This document shows positions 28,803-37,226 of a stretch of DNA of 64,000 nucleotides, one piece after another. A program made the position numbers and the translations under genes. The notes below the pieces were generated by a model, which worked only from the letters and a program-made list of their open reading frames with translations, was not told where the DNA came from and made no database searches. How positions within the stretch are numbered: the first letter of the stretch is position 1; every line of letters starts with the position of its first letter. Source of the stretch: Fimbriiglobus ruber (lineage in GTDB: Bacteria; Planctomycetota; Planctomycetia; Gemmatales; Gemmataceae); contig NZ_NIDE01000007.1 in the NCBI RefSeq assembly GCF_002197845.1, forward strand, positions 62,001 to 126,000. Reading direction: 5' to 3'.

Positions 28803-30328
28803 GGGTAAGCAGCTCTAAAGTTGGTGGAAAATGTGTTCAGTTCGATTTGGGTTAGATGGTCGACCGGAAATTCCTCCGGGAGGAGCCCATTATGGCCACG
28901 CGACCCGACCTCACTTCTGAACAAGAACAGCACGCTCAAGCCTTGGCCACGCGCATGCAGGCGCGCGTCTCGGAGACCGTCCTGGAAATGGCCCGAACGC
29001 TCGTCGCCACCTCGGATGCGACTCTCTTCGGGGACACCGAGTTCGCTCTGCGGGACCAGGCCTTGGGACTCCTCGGTGTGGCCGACACCGAGCATCTGCT
29101 CGAAAAAAAAGCGGCTACCAAGGGTCGTCCATCGACTGCCCGCACTGCCGCGCGACGGCGGCGTTCCACGGGTATCGGGAACGACACGCCGAATCCCTCG
29201 GGGGGCGGATCTGTTGCCGCCGGGCCTATTACTACTGTCGCTCGTGTGGTCATGGGACGGCCCCGTGGGATCCGGCGGTGGGGTTAACCGAACGTCGCCT
29301 GACGCCGGCGGTGGAACGGCTGGCCACGCTCACCGGTGCGGTGGCCGACAGCTTCGAGAACGGGGCCGAATTGCTGGCCGAGACCTCGGGGATTCGACTC
29401 CGTGAGTCGACGGTCGAGCGAACCACGGCGGCGGCGGGGAAACGAATCGCGGCGGTGCTGTCGGGCGATCGTGGCCTGGGTAAATCGAAGCCGTGGGCGT
29501 GGCATTGCGACGCGTGGGGCCGGACCGTGGGTTACATCGCGTTGGACGCCACGGGGATTCGCCCGCAAGGCCGGGGTGGGGTGAAGGCCGATGGGCGGAT
29601 GGCCTACGTGGGCATGATTTTCAATCCGTTGCCGGATCGCGAGCGGGTGTTCGAGAAGTTGCCGAAGCCGGGCACGTCGATGACGGCGCGGTACGTGAGC
29701 GGTCTGTACCCACTGTCCGCGATCCAACCCCGACTTGCGCCGCTTGGCGACGCAAGTCGGGGTTGGATCGCGGACGTGCAGATTGCGCTGAGCGACGGCG
29801 GTGCGGGACGGGAAGATCTTCTGCGGGACCATTTCGGGCGGGTCGAGGTCGTGATCCTGGATTTCTTCCATGCCGCCGAACACCTGGGGAAATTGGCCAA
29901 GGCCTGGCATCCGCAGGACGAACCGGCCGCCCGCGAGCAAACCGCGGCGTGGTCGCGGTTGCTGCGGGACGAGGGCGGCGATGCCATGATCGCGGTGTTG
30001 GAAGAGGGGGACATCCCCTCCTCGGCGAGCGCCCGCAGCATCCGGGAGGAGGTGCGGACGTATTTCCGCAATCAGTGTCACCGGATGGATGATCCGACGT
30101 ACGAGGCCAATGGCTGGTTCATCGGTTCGGGCGCGGTGGAAAGTGCGTGCAAGACGGTGGTCGGAAGCCGCCTGAAAGGTTCCGGAATGCGTTGGAGCGA
30201 GTCGGGCGGAGACGCGGTCTGCCACGTCCGCGCCCTGTACCGCAGCGAACCAAGCCAATGGCAAGCTTTTTGGCAGCGCGATCTGGCTGCATAGTACAAA
30301 TGACTACCAACAAAAATGACGCTTACCC
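28803..30328 (+). mobile_element. ISKra4-family element 2, 1526 bp, no matching target duplication
   Basis: Ends are GGGTAAGCAGC (28803) and, reversed, GGGTAAGCGTC (ending 30328), with GTTGGT shared further in. The left flank CCCAATCTC and the right flank ACTCGGGCC do not match, so rearrangement or deletion followed its insertion. Its left end directly abuts the duplication made by element 1. Confidence 0.8.
28892..30294 (+). CDS. ISKra4-family transposase, -1 frameshift at A8
   Basis: The first frame starts at ATG 28892 (MATRPDLTSEQEQ) after GGAGG. The second frame runs to 30294. The A8 run at 29103-29110, read gaa-aaa-aaa, is a strong A AAA AAA slip site. After a -1 slip the sequence continues G-Y-Q-G-S-S-I-D-C-P-H-C and a second Cys pair (C-R-S-C-G-H), the zinc finger of the family, before LTERRLTPAVERLA. 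Downstream it has WAWHCDAWGRTVGYIALDATGI, ILDFFHAAEHL and GSGAVESACKTVVGSRLKGSGMRW. It is clearly diverged from element 1. Confidence 0.85.
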
Positions 30329-30541: not shown

Positions 30542-30814
30542 CAGGGCTTACGCACTATGCTTCTGGAATGGCATGGATTATTTTTAGCAAATAATCTTCA
30601 TCCCAAGCGGCTTTCAAGATCTTGCTCGGCAGTGTCTCCTTCCCGGGGGGCGCGGCGGAGCAACGACACCAGCACCCGACGGATCATGGCCCGATTGGCG
30701 CCCGCGTGCCCGGCTTGCGTCAGGCTCGCATCCTCCCGGAACACCACGTCGAGAACCCAATGGAGTTGGTTCTCGATGGGCCTGTCACACGGACCTCCAA
30801 GTTACAAGTTGTGT

Positions 30815-30853
30815 GGGGTCCGGTCATCGTCACGGTGACGATGACCGGACCCC
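30815..30853. repeat. Perfect 39-nt palindrome after the recombinase gene
   Basis: Nineteen bases starting GGGGTCCGGTCATCGTCAC are followed by a single G and their exact reverse complement. It begins 10 bases beyond the recombinase stop, inside the element edge. It could be a bidirectional terminator or part of the attachment structure. Confidence 0.85.
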
Positions 30854-30862
30854 GCCAAGCCA

Positions 30863-32994
30863 TTACGCACGTGACGCAGGCACGCGCAACGTCGCCAGCC
30901 GATCCCGATTGGCCCAGACCCGCGGGCATTCCTTGAGCGCGCGCAACCGGCTCATCTCCGTGCCGCCGGCCCACACGGCCCACGGGCCGCCCCGCCCGCC
31001 GACTTGGCGGGCATGCAACCATCCCTTCTTCCGCCACCCGGGCAGCGTGTGAGGCGACACCCCCAGGTGACGCGCCCGCGCGTGCAGCCACCACGCGCCC
31101 GCGGTCAAGACCGCGCCCGCGTCCGTGCCCCGCGACATCCTCGGGCGTAAGCCCAGTTCGGCGAGCAACCGCCGCACCATCCCGGCGGTAAACGTCGCGG
31201 TCCGCTTGGGACTGCGGAACCCGGACTGGTTCCGCGCGCCGGCGATCTCGGCCGGCGTCTGGTTTTGCTCGTGCAAGGCCGCCACCCGGGCACGCAACAG
31301 GGGCCCGTCGCGCAGGTGCCGGTATCCCCGCACCGCCCGGCGGATCGTCTGCTCCCGAACCGCACCACCGGCCCACGCGATCCGCACCTCGACCCGATCG
31401 CCCCCGGGTTCCACCGCGAGTACCACCCGGGCGATCCGCCGGCGCACGATCTGTCGCCGATCCGCGGCCGTGGTGGTCGCGGCGTGCCACACCGCCGGCA
31501 CCCGCTCGGCCAGTTGCCGGATGGCCTCCCGGTCCGCGTCCCCGAGTACCCGCGGCTGGGTTCGGCGGAACCGGTCGAACTCGTCTTCCAACCGTCCCAC
31601 CTCCCGGAGCAACTGGTCCCAGCGGTGTTCCAGGGTCCGGGCCACCAGGCGGTTCTCCGGCTCACGGGCGTGGTACTGCCGGGCCGCTCGATCCGCGTCG
31701 TATTTCGCCCGCTCGATTCGCTGCTCCCAGTGGCGGGTCCGTTGCTGGCGCTGCCCCTCGATCGCGCCCGCGGCCGACAGGCCGGCCTCCAGGGCGGCCG
31801 GTTGCCGCGCGAGCAGCACCTGCTCGGCCACCCACCGCTCGACTTCCGCGGCCGAGGTCGACTGGCACACCGGCCCCGCGTAATCGGACCGGTCGGTGCG
31901 ACACACGTAGGCCGGCCCTCGACCGGCCCGCCCGTACCGGACGTACATCCGCTTGCCGCACCGCCCACACCGGCCAACAGAGCCGCCCCGGTGCGGGTCG
32001 CTCCCGGCGACTCCGACCGCGACCGGTTGGCGGCCAGGCGCTGCAGGTTAATCTGGTACGGATCCCAGCTGATGTACGCCGGGAACCGGTCCTTGAGGAA
32101 GACCAAACAGTCCTCGGGATCGAGCCCCGGTCCCCGGCCGCTCTTCGGGCGGCCGGGGACCGGACGCCGCGGGTCCGTCGGCCGGTGCCCGTAGCGATAC
32201 GCCCCGGCAGACATCGGGTGGCGCAGGACCTGGCGGATCGTCTCCCGGCACGGGCGGCGCCAGTCCAGGTGCCCGCGGTCGGGACCGGACGGCGTCCGCA
32301 CCGGCAACCGGATCTCGTGGGCGTTGAGGTACCGCAACACCGCGTGGGCCGTGCCCTGTCGGTCGAACTGGTCGAAGATCACCCGAACGACCCCGCGGGC
32401 TTGCTCGTCGGGATCGAGGACCACGGAACCATCGGGTGGCTTGAGATACCCGAGCGGCGCGGCCACGATCAGGTCCCCGCGCCGGGCCTTATTCAACTTC
32501 CCCGGGTGCATCCGCTGCTTGAGGACATGCCGTTCCGCTTCGCTCATCATCCCGTGGAGCCCGAGCAACAACCGGTCCGAATACTCGGTCGGGTCGAACA
32601 CCCCCTCCGCGTCGGCCAATAGTACGCGGAACCGGGCGCGGAGTTCCAGCAATTGGTGCCAGTCCTTGCACGACCGGGCCAATCGACTCATCTCCAGCCC
32701 CGGGATCAGGCCGATGCGGTCCCGGGCGACCTCGGCCAGCAGGCGCTGGAACCCGGGCCGACCTTCGATGGACGGACCGCTCTTACCCAGGTCGTCGTCG
32801 ATGACGGTCACCCGGTCTCGCGCCCACCCGAGGGCCACGGCCCGGCCGGCCAGCGCATACTGCCGGGCCGTGGACTCCTGGTGATCGGCGACTTGCTGGG
32901 GGGGCGATTGGCGGACGTAGACGATGGCCGCGCGGTCCGAGTGCCAGGACGGGAGTTTGGGCGACCGCGAGGGGTCAGGAGCGGTGATCATCAT
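30863..32994 (-). pseudogene. Large serine recombinase, one frameshift
   Basis: From ATG 32994: the resolvase domain has the catalytic serine in VYVRQSPPQQV, and then LEMSRLARSCKDWHQLLEL. A recombinase domain follows (VIFDQFDRQGTAHAVLRYL, IRQVLRHPMSAGAYRYG). A zinc ribbon and coiled coil come next, but one base is missing near 31975: restoring it gives C-G-R-C-G-K-R-M-Y-V-R-Y and then the second frame to the stop at 30863 (REPENRLVARTLEHRWDQLLREVGRL...). The total is about 710 residues, a normal size for large serine recombinases. If the missing base is an error, the enzyme is complete. Members of this family integrate DNA at short specific sites. Confidence 0.8.
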
Positions 32995-33165
32995 GACGCA
33001 CCTCCTGTGCGAGTGCCTCGGCGAGAACCGGGCGGGTGAGCAGGTCGGCGAGGAGTTGCTGGAGGCGGCGACGGCGGTCGGGCGGGAGTTGCCCCCAGAT
33101 CGCCGGTGGGCTCACCACGGGCGGGGCAATCGGCGGGGGGGAGCAGAGCGTTCGTTGACCGGCAT
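32975..33165 (-). pseudogene. Small upstream gene of the recombinase element, probable one-base shift
   Basis: ATG 33165 has GGAGA seven bases upstream and reads MPVNERSAPP; after a slip in the G7 run (33135-33141, plus strand) it continues PPVVSPPAIWGQLPPDRRRRLQQLLADLLTRPVLAEALAQEV and overlaps the recombinase start. The proline/arginine helix suggests a small DNA-associated accessory protein. Evidence is moderate. Confidence 0.45.
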
Positions 33166-34275
33166 GATGAGTCTCCGTGGCCGGAACGCTGATCGCACCA
33201 CGCGACCAGCGCGAGTAGGGCCTCGGTGGCGATGGTAACCGCACCGCCTGGGGGCGCACAAGTTGTCACTTCGCCGGTCTTCTGACCGGGGGTTCTCAAT
33301 CCCCCAATGTCCCCGAATCCAACCGGCCATCACCTCCGCCGTGCCCGCATGGCTACTCAGGTAGTAGTGGGTCGTGCGGGTCGTCTTCCCGTCGACCGTC
33401 CGCTCCCGATTCACCGGCACCACCGCCTTCACATCCCGCCACACGTCGGGAATCCCCTTCGGGTCATAGATCACCGTCACGTACCGCTCGTCGTGCCGCC
33501 CGTGCCCGTCCTCACAGGCGTCGTGTTGGTCATACCGCACGTCGGCGAATGCGGTCTCGCACGCCGTCGCGAACACGGTCTCGACGGCCGCCAGGAGTCC
33601 CGGTTGGTTGCCCTTCACCGTCAGCAAGTCGTCGCCCTCGCGGTCGCGAATGAGGGCCGCGTTCTCGACTTGGCACCCGGCCGCGTCGATCGTCACCAGA
33701 GCCCCCTTCCATTCCAGCACCCGGAGCAGATCGGGGATGACCGCGATCTCGTTCGACCCGTCGGGCACGGACACCTGGCCGAGGGTCACCCGGTTGGCCG
33801 TCGCCCACGCGCGGACCGTGTGCAGACACCCGGTCGCCGTCGCCTTCTTGGTCCCCCGGACGGACTTCCCATCGATCGCGGTCGGGATCCACCCGGTCGC
33901 CCGACACGCCGCGGCCATCCACGCCCCGAACCGGGCCGCGAACGCATCCGGGTCGAGAGCTTGGAACACGTTGTAGAACGTGTCATGGCTCGGGATTCCG
34001 TTCGCCAGGGGGAGGAACCGGCGGAAGAACGCCTCCTTGGTCCGCCCGTACAAGGCGATGGCCTCCCACGTCTGGGCCCCGGCCAGGACCGCACACGTGG
34101 CGATCACCAGGATATCGGCCAACTGATGCTTCGTGTTCTTCGTTTGACGGCGAGGGTCCGGAACGTCGGTGAACACGGCCGCCAGCGGCATGGTCATCGG
34201 GAAACTCCTCCATGAGTTCCGTCATGCTATCCATAACCCCTTGCAATGTCACTACTTCGTAGTGCGTGAGCCCTG

Positions 34276-34369
34276 CCCCCAGCGGCAGGCGTACGGCTAT
34301 CGCCACCACGAGTTCTTCCACCTCCGCATTTTCGCCTTACACCGCGCCAAGTACGTTCTTCTCGGATGA
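34276..34369 (+). pseudogene. Transposase C-terminal remnant (ISL3-like)
   Basis: The last codons read RQAYGYRHHEFFHLRIFALHRAKYVLLG before a stop, resembling the R-A-Y-G-F-R-D-x-E-F-F-K-L-K tail of ISL3-group transposases. The ISAs1 element cut away everything upstream. Confidence 0.45.
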
Positions 34370-35075
34370 ACCGCTTTTCTTCAATTCGTTCAAATCGAAC
34401 GCCTTCGCCCGCTTGACCAGCGCTTTCTCGAATTCAATAACCTTCTCATCCAGTCGGTGTTCCGGGGTAGAATGAGTTTCTTCTTGAAGAAGAATGGCGA
34501 AGATGATTCCTTTCAAATCGTCTCGTGTGAAGTCCGAACCCGGAGTGGTGATCGCGGCCATAACCCGCTTACGGTCCGAGAGCTTCGTGGCATCAGCTAA
34601 AATCACTTGGGTCAAATCGTCATCTTCTTTTCCCGACGCAAGCCGCTTGGTGTCCAGGTAGGCGTTAAGAATTCGGAGCTTCACCTGTCTCAACATGCGA
34701 GATGCGATATCGGTGATCCGCTTGCACGTTGCTCGTCGGCCTTGAAGACGGAGTTCGGGAGAATCGAGTTTCGCTTGCCTGCGCTTCCGCCGGACTCGAA
34801 CCGGACGAGTGCCAGCCTCGATCAACCCGGATGCTTCTTCGGTTGTCTCACTCGTGCTTTCGTCAATTTCTTCGTAGTCGCCTTCCTCTTCTGCGCTGGC
34901 TTCATCGCCAACAATCCCGTCGGGCGTCTGAACAACATCACGGTCGGACATCTGAGGTAAGGAAGCAGTTTGGTCGGTGACTACGAGAGATGTGTTCTCG
35001 GTCTCGGGGGGTCGCTGTGGGTTCGGACGAGTCAGCTATGGGGGTTGAACTTGGAGAGGATTCATTAGACGACAT
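34337..35075 (-). pseudogene. Unknown acidic/basic protein, likely one-base shift near its start
   Basis: The clear open frame begins at ATG 34951 (MSDRDVVQTPDG). Upstream, ATG 35075 with TGAGA before it opens MSSNESSPSSTPIADSSEP, and a slip in the G6 run (35006-35011, plus strand) would join the two through ETENTSLVVTDQTASLPQ. The N-terminal half is acidic and low-complexity (EEEGDYEEIDESTSETTEE). The C-terminal half is basic and helical (RRATCKRITDIASRMLRQVKLRILNAYLDTKRL, then LSDRKRVMAAI). Base use is visibly less GC-rich than most neighbours, hinting at transfer. The 3' end overlaps the ISL3-like remnant. No family recognised. Confidence 0.55.
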
Positions 35076-35709
35076 GGAAGTCTCAGGTTTTTAGAGGGGT
35101 GAAACCCAGTGAACGAGCCCGGATACGAGATAAAGGACATTGGATCATACCCCGCGGGTAGAAACAAGGGGCTGAGGCGGCCGCCGGATTTTGCGCGGGC
35201 GTGGAATTGAGACGGGAAAAGACGCCCGGCAGCAGTTGCGTGGACCGGCGAACGTGTCGCGGCGGCCGGTCCGACTACTTACCACATCACGCGGCGGCCG
35301 GAGCCGGTCGGGCCCGGCGGCGGAACCGCCCGACCAACCCGAGGCCGGCCAACCCGAGGCCGGCCAGGGCCGCGGTGCCCGGCTCGGGGGTCGTCGGCCC
35401 GATCGTCATCGGCGTCACGGTCACATCGATCCCGCCGCCGACGAACGAGTAGCCCGCCGGTTGGGGCACGGTCGGTTCGGTGTAGGCGGCGGCGCTGACG
35501 GTGTACTGGGTCGACCCGAGGGTCAGCGTTTGCGTGGCCGGGCTCGTGAACAGGTTTCCCAGCGGGTTCCCGGACGCGTTTCCGAGCAAATATTGGTTGA
35601 CGTCGAAGGAACCTTGCAGCACCCCCGCGATCGTCACCGACCCGGTCTGCCCGGTGGCACCGTCCGTGAGGTTCAGCGTAAGTGAGTAGGGGGAGTCGAA
35701 CGGGATCGT

Positions 35710-37226
35710 GGGTGTGTTCAAAGTTTGTCGGTAGGTTTTTACGCGGCCAACGTTTTGGGGGTTGCCGCCGGTCGTGTCCTCGGGTGGGTGGCCCAGAACC
35801 CGTCCCAGAACGCGGGGCCACTTTGGTAGATGGCCCGCAACGCGGCGACGGCCGCGGCCCCGTTCACCGTCCACCGCATCCCGGCTCCCTTCAACCGGGC
35901 TCCGACGACTTTACACCCGGCTTCCGTCGGTCCACTCCCGAGGTCGTACCCGGCCGCACGGTACGCCGGGTAATCGGTCCGGTGAAGGGTTCCGTCGAAG
36001 TACCCGAGGAGTAATCGCCGGGCCTCGTCGGCCGCGTCCCCCGACGGCAACGGCTGGTCCCGAATCCACGCCACGAACCCGGCCCCACCGCGGTCGTACA
36101 ACGTGCCCTTGGCCCGGTCCACCCACGACTCCCGCGTGGCCTCGTCGGCCCACACCGCCCGGGCATACGTGTGGAGGTGTTCGACCGCGTGATACCAGTC
36201 CAGGATGCACAACAACCCGTCGTCGAAATGCCGCCGTAATCCGGCTTCCAACCCGTTCCCGGCGTCCGACACCGCGATCACCCGGTCGACGCGGCCGAAC
36301 CCGCGGGCAATGGCCCGCTGACGCAACCCCGCACACACCTGGTCGAGGTTCCAATCCGTCACGTACTCGGTCCCCGTCTTGTCCGGCGTGTACACCAGCC
36401 CGATGTACAGCATCCGGCTGTCCGCCTGCGTTCCGTCCGGGTGTTGGATCGGGACGCGGAACGCATCCAACCCGAGATACCCGATCGTCGTCGTCTGGTC
36501 CGGGGCGGTGAAATCCCAGGCCGGTTGGGGCGGGGACGGGACCACCACGCTCCCCGCCCGGGTCCGGGCGATCCACTCCTGGCCGGCCCGCTCGGTCGCC
36601 CGCCAGACGGTCCCGGCCGACACCCGCCGACCGGCGAATCGGCGGAGCAAGTCGTCGGCCCCGTCGGCGAACGAGGCCAGCACTCCGGCCAAGGTGACCA
36701 ACGGCCGGAACCCCGGGCTGAGGGCGTCGGCTTGCAGCCCCAGGGTGGCGTCGGCCGGACACGTCCCGGTCTGACACGCCCGGCAGTGGTAGTACGCTCG
36801 GGACACGTCGACATCCCCGGTCAAGGTCACGATCCGGCGGGACCGCCAGGCGTGGAACCGGGCGTCCGCCCGGCACTCCGGGCACACGATGCTCGACCCC
36901 TGGTACCCCCTTTTTTCCGGGCCTCGAGCCCGGTCTGGTGGGCCGTCGTGGCCAGGTCATGGGCGGCGTCCCGGAGCCGATACTCGATGTCCCCGAACAG
37001 TTCGGTGTCCGGGCGATCGACCAACTGCTCGGCCATCCGCCGGAGAGCGTCCTCGGCCGCCGGGCGGAGTTGGGTCAGAAGAGCCTCGATACGGGCGTGG
37101 CGGTCGGGAGTCGGAGACATGGTGCCCATCCTGGTCGGAATGTCCGGCCCGGTCACGAGTTCGGGCCGCTTCCCCGAACGTACCCGACACCCATCCATTT
37201 TGCACCCACTAACTTGGAACACCCCC
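35710..37226 (-). mobile_element. ISKra4-family element 3, 1517 bp, 9-bp target duplication
   Basis: The 9-bp direct repeat CGGGATCGT lies at 35701-35709 and 37227-37235. Inverted ends GGGTGTGTTCAAAGTT and, reversed, GGGGGTGTTCCAAGTT match well. Insertion splits the PEP-CTERM gene. It shares the A6G5 slip window with element 1 but differs in its ends. Confidence 0.92.
35739..37120 (-). CDS. ISKra4-family transposase, -1 frameshift
   Basis: First frame from ATG 37120 (MSPTPDRHARIEALL; AGGATGGG upstream) with FGDIEYRLRDAAHDLATT, ending at 36827. Second frame to 35739 starts in the zinc finger CPECRADARFHAWRSRR...CRACQTGTCP. It then has WDFTAPDQTTTIGYLGLDAFRVP, ILDWYHAVEHLHTYARAVW and GSGPTEAGCKVVGARLKGAGMRW. 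A slip at A6G5 near 36910 produces GYQGSS before CPEC as expected for the family. It looks intact. Confidence 0.85.

Follow-up and report, generated by a model that had tools for sequence, protein, structure and literature searches.

The stretch of DNA analyzed here (the window) comprises 64,000 nucleotides of Fimbriiglobus ruber, assembly GCF_002197845.1, contig NZ_NIDE01000007.1, positions 62,001 to 126,000. Coordinates below are window positions, and the features of the composite described here lie on the minus strand. At 30542-34275 lies an ISAs1 insertion sequence (IS) with a large serine recombinase (LSR) element inside it, a composite delimited by terminal inverted repeats (CAGGGCTTACGCACTA / CAGGGCTCACGCACTA, at 30542 and 34275) and by its recurrence as a repeated unit. 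Its transposase, which matches PF13808 and PF01609, is in two parts. The N-terminal part (33298-34197), which, like relatives in the same genome, also matches NF033564, runs up to the codon of the predicted catalytic glutamate, and the C-terminal part (30598-30772) resumes as (E)NQLHWVLDVVFRED. As a first-pass annotation of this DNA had proposed, the gene is split at the I-E-N codons by about 2.5 kb; the insert measures 2,523 bp, and once the flanks are joined at GA the reading frame is continuous again and encodes ...HWGI[E]NQLHWVLDV.... In addition to the transposase and terminal inverted repeats, the 8- to 10-bp target duplication of ISAs1 elements is seen in other copies, and none was found at the window copy itself.

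The interrupted glutamate (residue 301) falls at PF01609 position 164, a position derived from match ranges, and the same position holds the glutamate of R(3)E(6)K (the YREK Glu) in the targets of two relatives (L112 and L083), whose ranges are equal in length. By this correspondence, the residue hit by the insert is the predicted catalytic glutamate of the ISAs1 transposase, and the insertion place is exactly this codon, not just anywhere in ISAs1.

ISKra4-family transposase genes flank the composite (29278-30294 and 35739-36887), with NF033572 scoring just below its curated cut-off. A 204-aa open reading frame (ORF) adjoins the composite (34337-34951, minus strand) and gave no match in the NCBIfam search, and another (35287-35874, minus strand) has TPEPGTAALAGLGLAGLGLVGRFRRRA in its C-terminal part, which resembles a PEP-CTERM sorting signal.

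Read in the coding direction, the insert opens with the left attP arm, followed by a small ORF that runs into the beginning of the LSR gene, the LSR gene itself, a GC-rich hairpin, and the right attP arm. The LSR gene (30863-32994) was placed by domain matches and by comparison with an intact relative. It reads in two frames, having lost 10 bp near 31973 that intact sister copies retain; programmed frameshifting was rejected on account of this deletion. The copy at locus L032, 99.9% identical to the window element, likewise has a broken LSR. Judged by its reading frame, the LSR gene of the window has become a pseudogene, which would leave this copy inert for LSR activity. The intact LSR (P0001, 721 aa) carries the domain set of LSR integrative elements in one protein, matching PF00239, PF07508, and PF13408 (Resolvase, Recombinase, and zinc ribbon) above cut-offs, and the window copy matches two of the three, Resolvase and Recombinase. 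Thus, the single recombinase and the small upstream gene reported earlier are both present, but the recombinase is frameshifted in the window.

The small upstream ORF (32975-33259) has no Pfam match. Its C-terminal W-x-x-L-P...R...LL stretch recurs in relatives, where it was recognized by eye ahead of the LSR gene at many loci; our guess is that its product could be a partner or directionality factor. Some more distant LSR elements (L119, L121, L096, L105, and L095-L099) have one or two extra small upstream genes, of an HPxHPLxGxxxxV type and an RRCGKxGCRCxxGxxHGPYxYxxxR type. The 39-nt palindrome noted before is indeed there (30815-30853). It lies after the LSR stop and before the right end of the element and was assessed by folding and by comparison with relatives. 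In L031, L037, L108, L112, and L101, the region from the LSR stop to the right end gives better folds than its shuffled versions do (z scores of -4.2 to -6.6), and the hairpins in several near relatives are GC-rich but of differing sequence. Folding is weaker in other loci and absent in L109, L110, L089, and L113. The hairpin is terminator-like and may act as a transcription terminator or shield.

The LSR element spans 30775-33297 (2,523 bp with one GA core counted), as fixed by the joins, by the 99.9%-identical element at L032, and by empty sites for related insertions. Flank joining places a putative GA crossover dinucleotide at its 5' end (33296-33297, positions 1 and 2 of the Glu codon) and at its 3' end (30773-30774). 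The expectation that crossover would lie at junction bases common to both ends fits, with GA at the junctions of all 17 own-genome copies readable at both ends. The GTTCTC sequence proposed as the crossover is present at both junctions and is the GA site of the Glu codon as seen on the plus strand, but the core is GA rather than six bases. We rejected a six-base core in view of the variation beyond the dinucleotide in other copies, whose right flanks read GAGAAC, GAGAAT, or GAAAAT; GA alone is certainly common to the copies.

The left arm (33248-33295) and the reverse complement of the right arm (30775-30822) match at 28 of 48 positions at zero offset, compared with a mean of 16.9 and a maximum of 23 in shuffled sequences. 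The inner inverted sequences that the first-pass annotation saw near each edge are real, though we reread them as the two arms of one symmetric attP. At L108, the arms match at 31 of 48 positions at zero offset; across loci, shuffles had means of about 17 to 18 and maxima of 23 to 24. Symmetry at zero offset was seen in L031, L037, L033, L081, L108, L109, L047, and L113; members that are distant or lie in the opposite orientation (L085, L089, L111, L112, and L116) showed little symmetry or none. When symmetry alone was used to find the ends, the true core ranked first in L033, L108, L109, L081, and L047 and second (or tied) in L031 and L037. In distant members this approach had no success, and their ends were therefore taken from reading frames. 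Symmetric arms about GA are the form expected of an LSR attP. The predicted half-sites are inverted about a 2-bp core, and integration appears precise, with no duplication beyond the core.

With the N-terminal part of the LSR as query, the host genome returned 31 matches, and 20 genome stretches with flanks were taken for comparison. These included 14 related copies with both ends readable, all in ISAs1 genes (F1), and three copies of a sister LSR, 58% identical, in IS701-type transposase genes (F2). In all 17 insertions, the junction GA is the first two bases of a Glu codon. The F1 joins rebuild HWxI[E]N, and the F2 joins rebuild RWSV[E]DCFRQAKEELG, RFAL[E]TTFRDLKQVVG, and TV[E]HLFRVAKQEVG; among the 17, a few flanks have decayed farther out. 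Near-identical recombinases keep the same edges, a check that the first-pass annotation had called for. Eight full-length F1 LSRs are intact and 100% identical over 721 aa, pointing to a recent burst. Moreover, near-identical LSRs occupy the same codon in clearly different ISAs1 subfamilies, which argues for separate entries.

Empty sites were sought with 182-nt joined flanks as queries, each searched singly. For the L039 target, 10 gap-free uninterrupted copies were found (96% identity), and for the L033 target, three (96 to 99%). The L041 target gave four gap-free copies, one of them 100% identical across all 182 nt, and the L043 target gave nine uninterrupted copies at 87 to 92%. By NCBIfam, the genome has five ISAs1 genes that are full length and uninterrupted. 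It is also worth pointing out that at L037 (left flank) and L046 the interrupted transposase halves derive from two different ISAs1 subfamilies, as if two occupied sites had recombined via their common LSR element.

The composite as a whole is repeated as well, at 99.2% identity in L032 and at about 80% in L034, L036, L038, L040, and L048, each time with different flanks. Target duplications border it at L048 (8 bp, CTCATGAG) and at L036 (10 bp, CGTGTACCCC), in the A' subfamily of ISAs1, where the composite itself is what is repeated, in at least five copies. On this comparison of flanks, the composite is a unit that also moves as one. The insert thus has two ways to travel, either integrating by itself or being carried along when ISAs1 transposes; for the latter, other ISAs1 transposases would have to act in trans.

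The homologues compared came from named genomes, related planctomycetes, and plasmids and were chosen independently of their flanks. For many distant members the flanks were assigned by eye, and family scans (Pfam/NCBIfam) later confirmed a sample of them; the target list leaves out about 10 distant loci (L061, L088, L093, L096, L102, L103, L105, L115, L122, and L123). Both ends could be read, with the frame restored at the catalytic Glu on joining, for relatives in ISAs1 (L081, L108, and L109), IS630 (L101 and L092), IS4-type (L112, L083, and L154), IS5 (L085), IS1380 (L089), and IS701 (L153) transposase genes, with the target family confirmed for nearly all. One end was read at a catalytic-Glu codon in L082, L090/L091, L107, L110, L111, L155, L156, L157, and L162. 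Other members hit the Lys of the IS3 E(6)K motif (L047 and L113; one side of L104 and L114), the Walker-A Lys of IstB (L119), a C-terminal motif of IstB (L158 and L159; one side of L160 and L161), or motif A of a group II intron reverse transcriptase (L120 and L121). Loci L158-L161 are Methylocystis and rhizobial plasmids, with the insertion in istB near the C-terminal GDxxMTxAxLDRLxHH. At L104 (2212-4998), an IS3-targeting LSR gene is itself split by about 2.8 kb containing an ISL3-type transposase fragment.

LSR genes are among the targets, at DRLLLGL|xGMMNEAE, in L118, in L100, and for the second LSR of L110. These nested loci (8316-11012 in L110, 3779-6986 in L118, and L100) are each interrupted at DRLLLGL|, so the family parasitizes itself too. 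Further targets are IS66 (L116), IS3 orfA (L117), and ISKra4 (L097 and L098); the IS66, ISKra4, IS3 orfA, and IstB C-terminal sites are conserved and are without a known catalytic role there. Exceptions are L086 and L087, seemingly at a cellular DUF1257 gene. Relatives occur in 430 plasmid records, many of them rhizobial. The proposal of a minimal mobile unit common in this lineage holds in that the element is repeated there, but the family extends beyond planctomycetes.

In a maximum-likelihood tree of 44 LSRs, single, fully supported groups were recovered for ISAs1, IS3, IS701, and LSR targets, and target labels required 18 changes compared with 31.6 in shuffles. Because tree groups match targets, specificity appears to be inherited, with several switches between IS families. 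Among the relatives, the LSR clades differ in target, each using a particular conserved motif in an enzyme of some other mobile element.

Taken together, these data make it highly probable that the insert is a minimal LSR element that integrates site specifically at the GA of the ISAs1 catalytic-Glu codon and rides on the IS. The sequence-level support for this comprises the ends, the GA core, the attP arms, the restored frames, the empty sites, the separate insertions, and the composites with duplications. The element would enter the transposase gene by GA-core serine recombination, the LSR alone presumably performing integration; insertion at the Glu codon would kill the transposase, after which the element would hitchhike on the IS. 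It could also excise as a circle.

Such excision would be central if the LSR were a reversible switch, sometimes leaving and restoring the transposase and so regulating the IS, like XisF/fdxN and skin-type elements. The GA join does restore the frame exactly, the best NCBIfam match is XisF (though far below its cut-off), and the A' subfamily is multicopy yet only interrupted, no uninterrupted A' transposase gene being present in this assembly. However, any precise site-specific integrant restores its site when excised, the LSR is oriented opposite to the host transposase in many relatives, and the window composite occurs in two places although its LSR is dead. We consider a switch unlikely. 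LSRs are common as integrases of phages and integrative elements, and the insert might by that token be a decayed prophage, ICE, or island integrase that has lost its cargo. As the first-pass annotation had surmised for a phage-free, single-enzyme element, however, no phage record matched the relatives at an E value of 1e-20, the element holds only two genes, and its length from core to core is a uniform 2.4 to 2.6 kb or so across planctomycetes, actinobacteria, and proteobacteria. The own-genome flanks, which had been flagged for possible prophages or islands, are IS genes, and decay from a larger element is highly improbable. Scarcely credible is that the LSR belongs permanently to a single unusual lineage of ISAs1 and is mobile through ISAs1 transposition only. 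This would fit the repetition of the composite with target duplications but was dropped as contradicted by the empty sites, with near-identical LSRs in several ISAs1 subfamilies and sister LSRs in IS701, IS3, IS630, IS5, and others.

We read the site-specific LSR element of the window as one of a family of minimal elements whose targets would be conserved active-site codons in the enzymes of other mobile elements, on which they would then hitchhike. That relatives in many groups attack other jumping genes suggests a widespread, hardly noticed parasite of mobile DNA. A bolder reading, which we offer tentatively as possible but somewhat short of probable, is of a multiphylum LSR superfamily specialized on active-site codons (the DDE Glu, the E(6)K Lys, IstB Walker A, and reverse-transcriptase motif A), with their own LSR kin among the targets, the elements being hyperparasites that inactivate transposases and check the expansion of ISs in their hosts; the argument is that the targets cannot mutate away without loss of function. 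The pattern may have been overlooked because the proteins are named merely "recombinase family protein" and interrupted transposases tend to drop from gene tables as pseudogenes. These are natural LSRs with a short, highly conserved coding motif as target, in multiple copies and many gene families, and their ready attP/attB pairs and empty sites could be useful for learning how LSRs read DNA. They also offer a case of layered parasitism, a recombinase element in a transposase or recombinase gene, aimed at the one codon that the host element cannot change. If general, this would naturally restrain insertion sequences and would also give the elements a way to hitchhike.

Several known systems invite comparison. 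Tn4451 (TnpX) and Tn5397 (TndX) share the GA core. Like the element described here, they have an LSR as sole recombination enzyme, make no target duplication, and use multiple targets; they differ in their cargo and larger size, whereas here active-site codons of mobile-element enzymes are targeted. Inteins and homing introns also insert at the most conserved active-site codons of host genes, but they are spliced out and host function is kept, while insertion here destroys the transposase. XisF excises a gene-interrupting element. The nearest NCBIfam models are XisF and Ccr, and both are far below cut-off: XisF (NF041201) scores 79.4 bits against a curated cut-off of 375, and SCCmec CcrA/B/C score 58.9 bits or less against cut-offs of 700 to 900, so the LSR is a member of neither. 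In contrast to XisF/fdxN and CcrA/B/C, a developmental context is known for none of the copies here.

DUF4368 marks the TndX-like multi-targeting LSR clade, occurring in 63% of members (PMC10083194), and it had no match in P0001, P0002, or L047, which gives no sign of that TndX/TnpX-like clade. The same study (Durrant et al.) found magnesium-chelatase-like and competence genes to be enriched as LSR targets (PMC10083194). IS607-family serine transposons are described as IS sized, moved by a serine recombinase, and without terminal inverted repeats (PMC4058570, PMC6188088). They differ in the inverted domain order of TnpA, a second gene, and minimal target specificity, compared with the LSR and high specificity here. 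IS607 members have a TnpA with an N-terminal DNA-binding domain, and TnpB; the LSR has 721 aa with the catalytic domain first, and no TnpB-like ORF was noted in the element. Closest in way of life is the group II intron RmInt1, whose natural home is the transposase gene of ISRm2011-2 and which is said to limit dispersal of that IS (PMC4238363). It too resides within an IS transposase gene, but it does so by RNA-based retrohoming and splicing, with no serine recombinase. Our search of open-licence papers turned up no account of serine-recombinase elements that target transposase genes. An element moved by an LSR is thus of a known kind, and its target and minimal form are apparently new.
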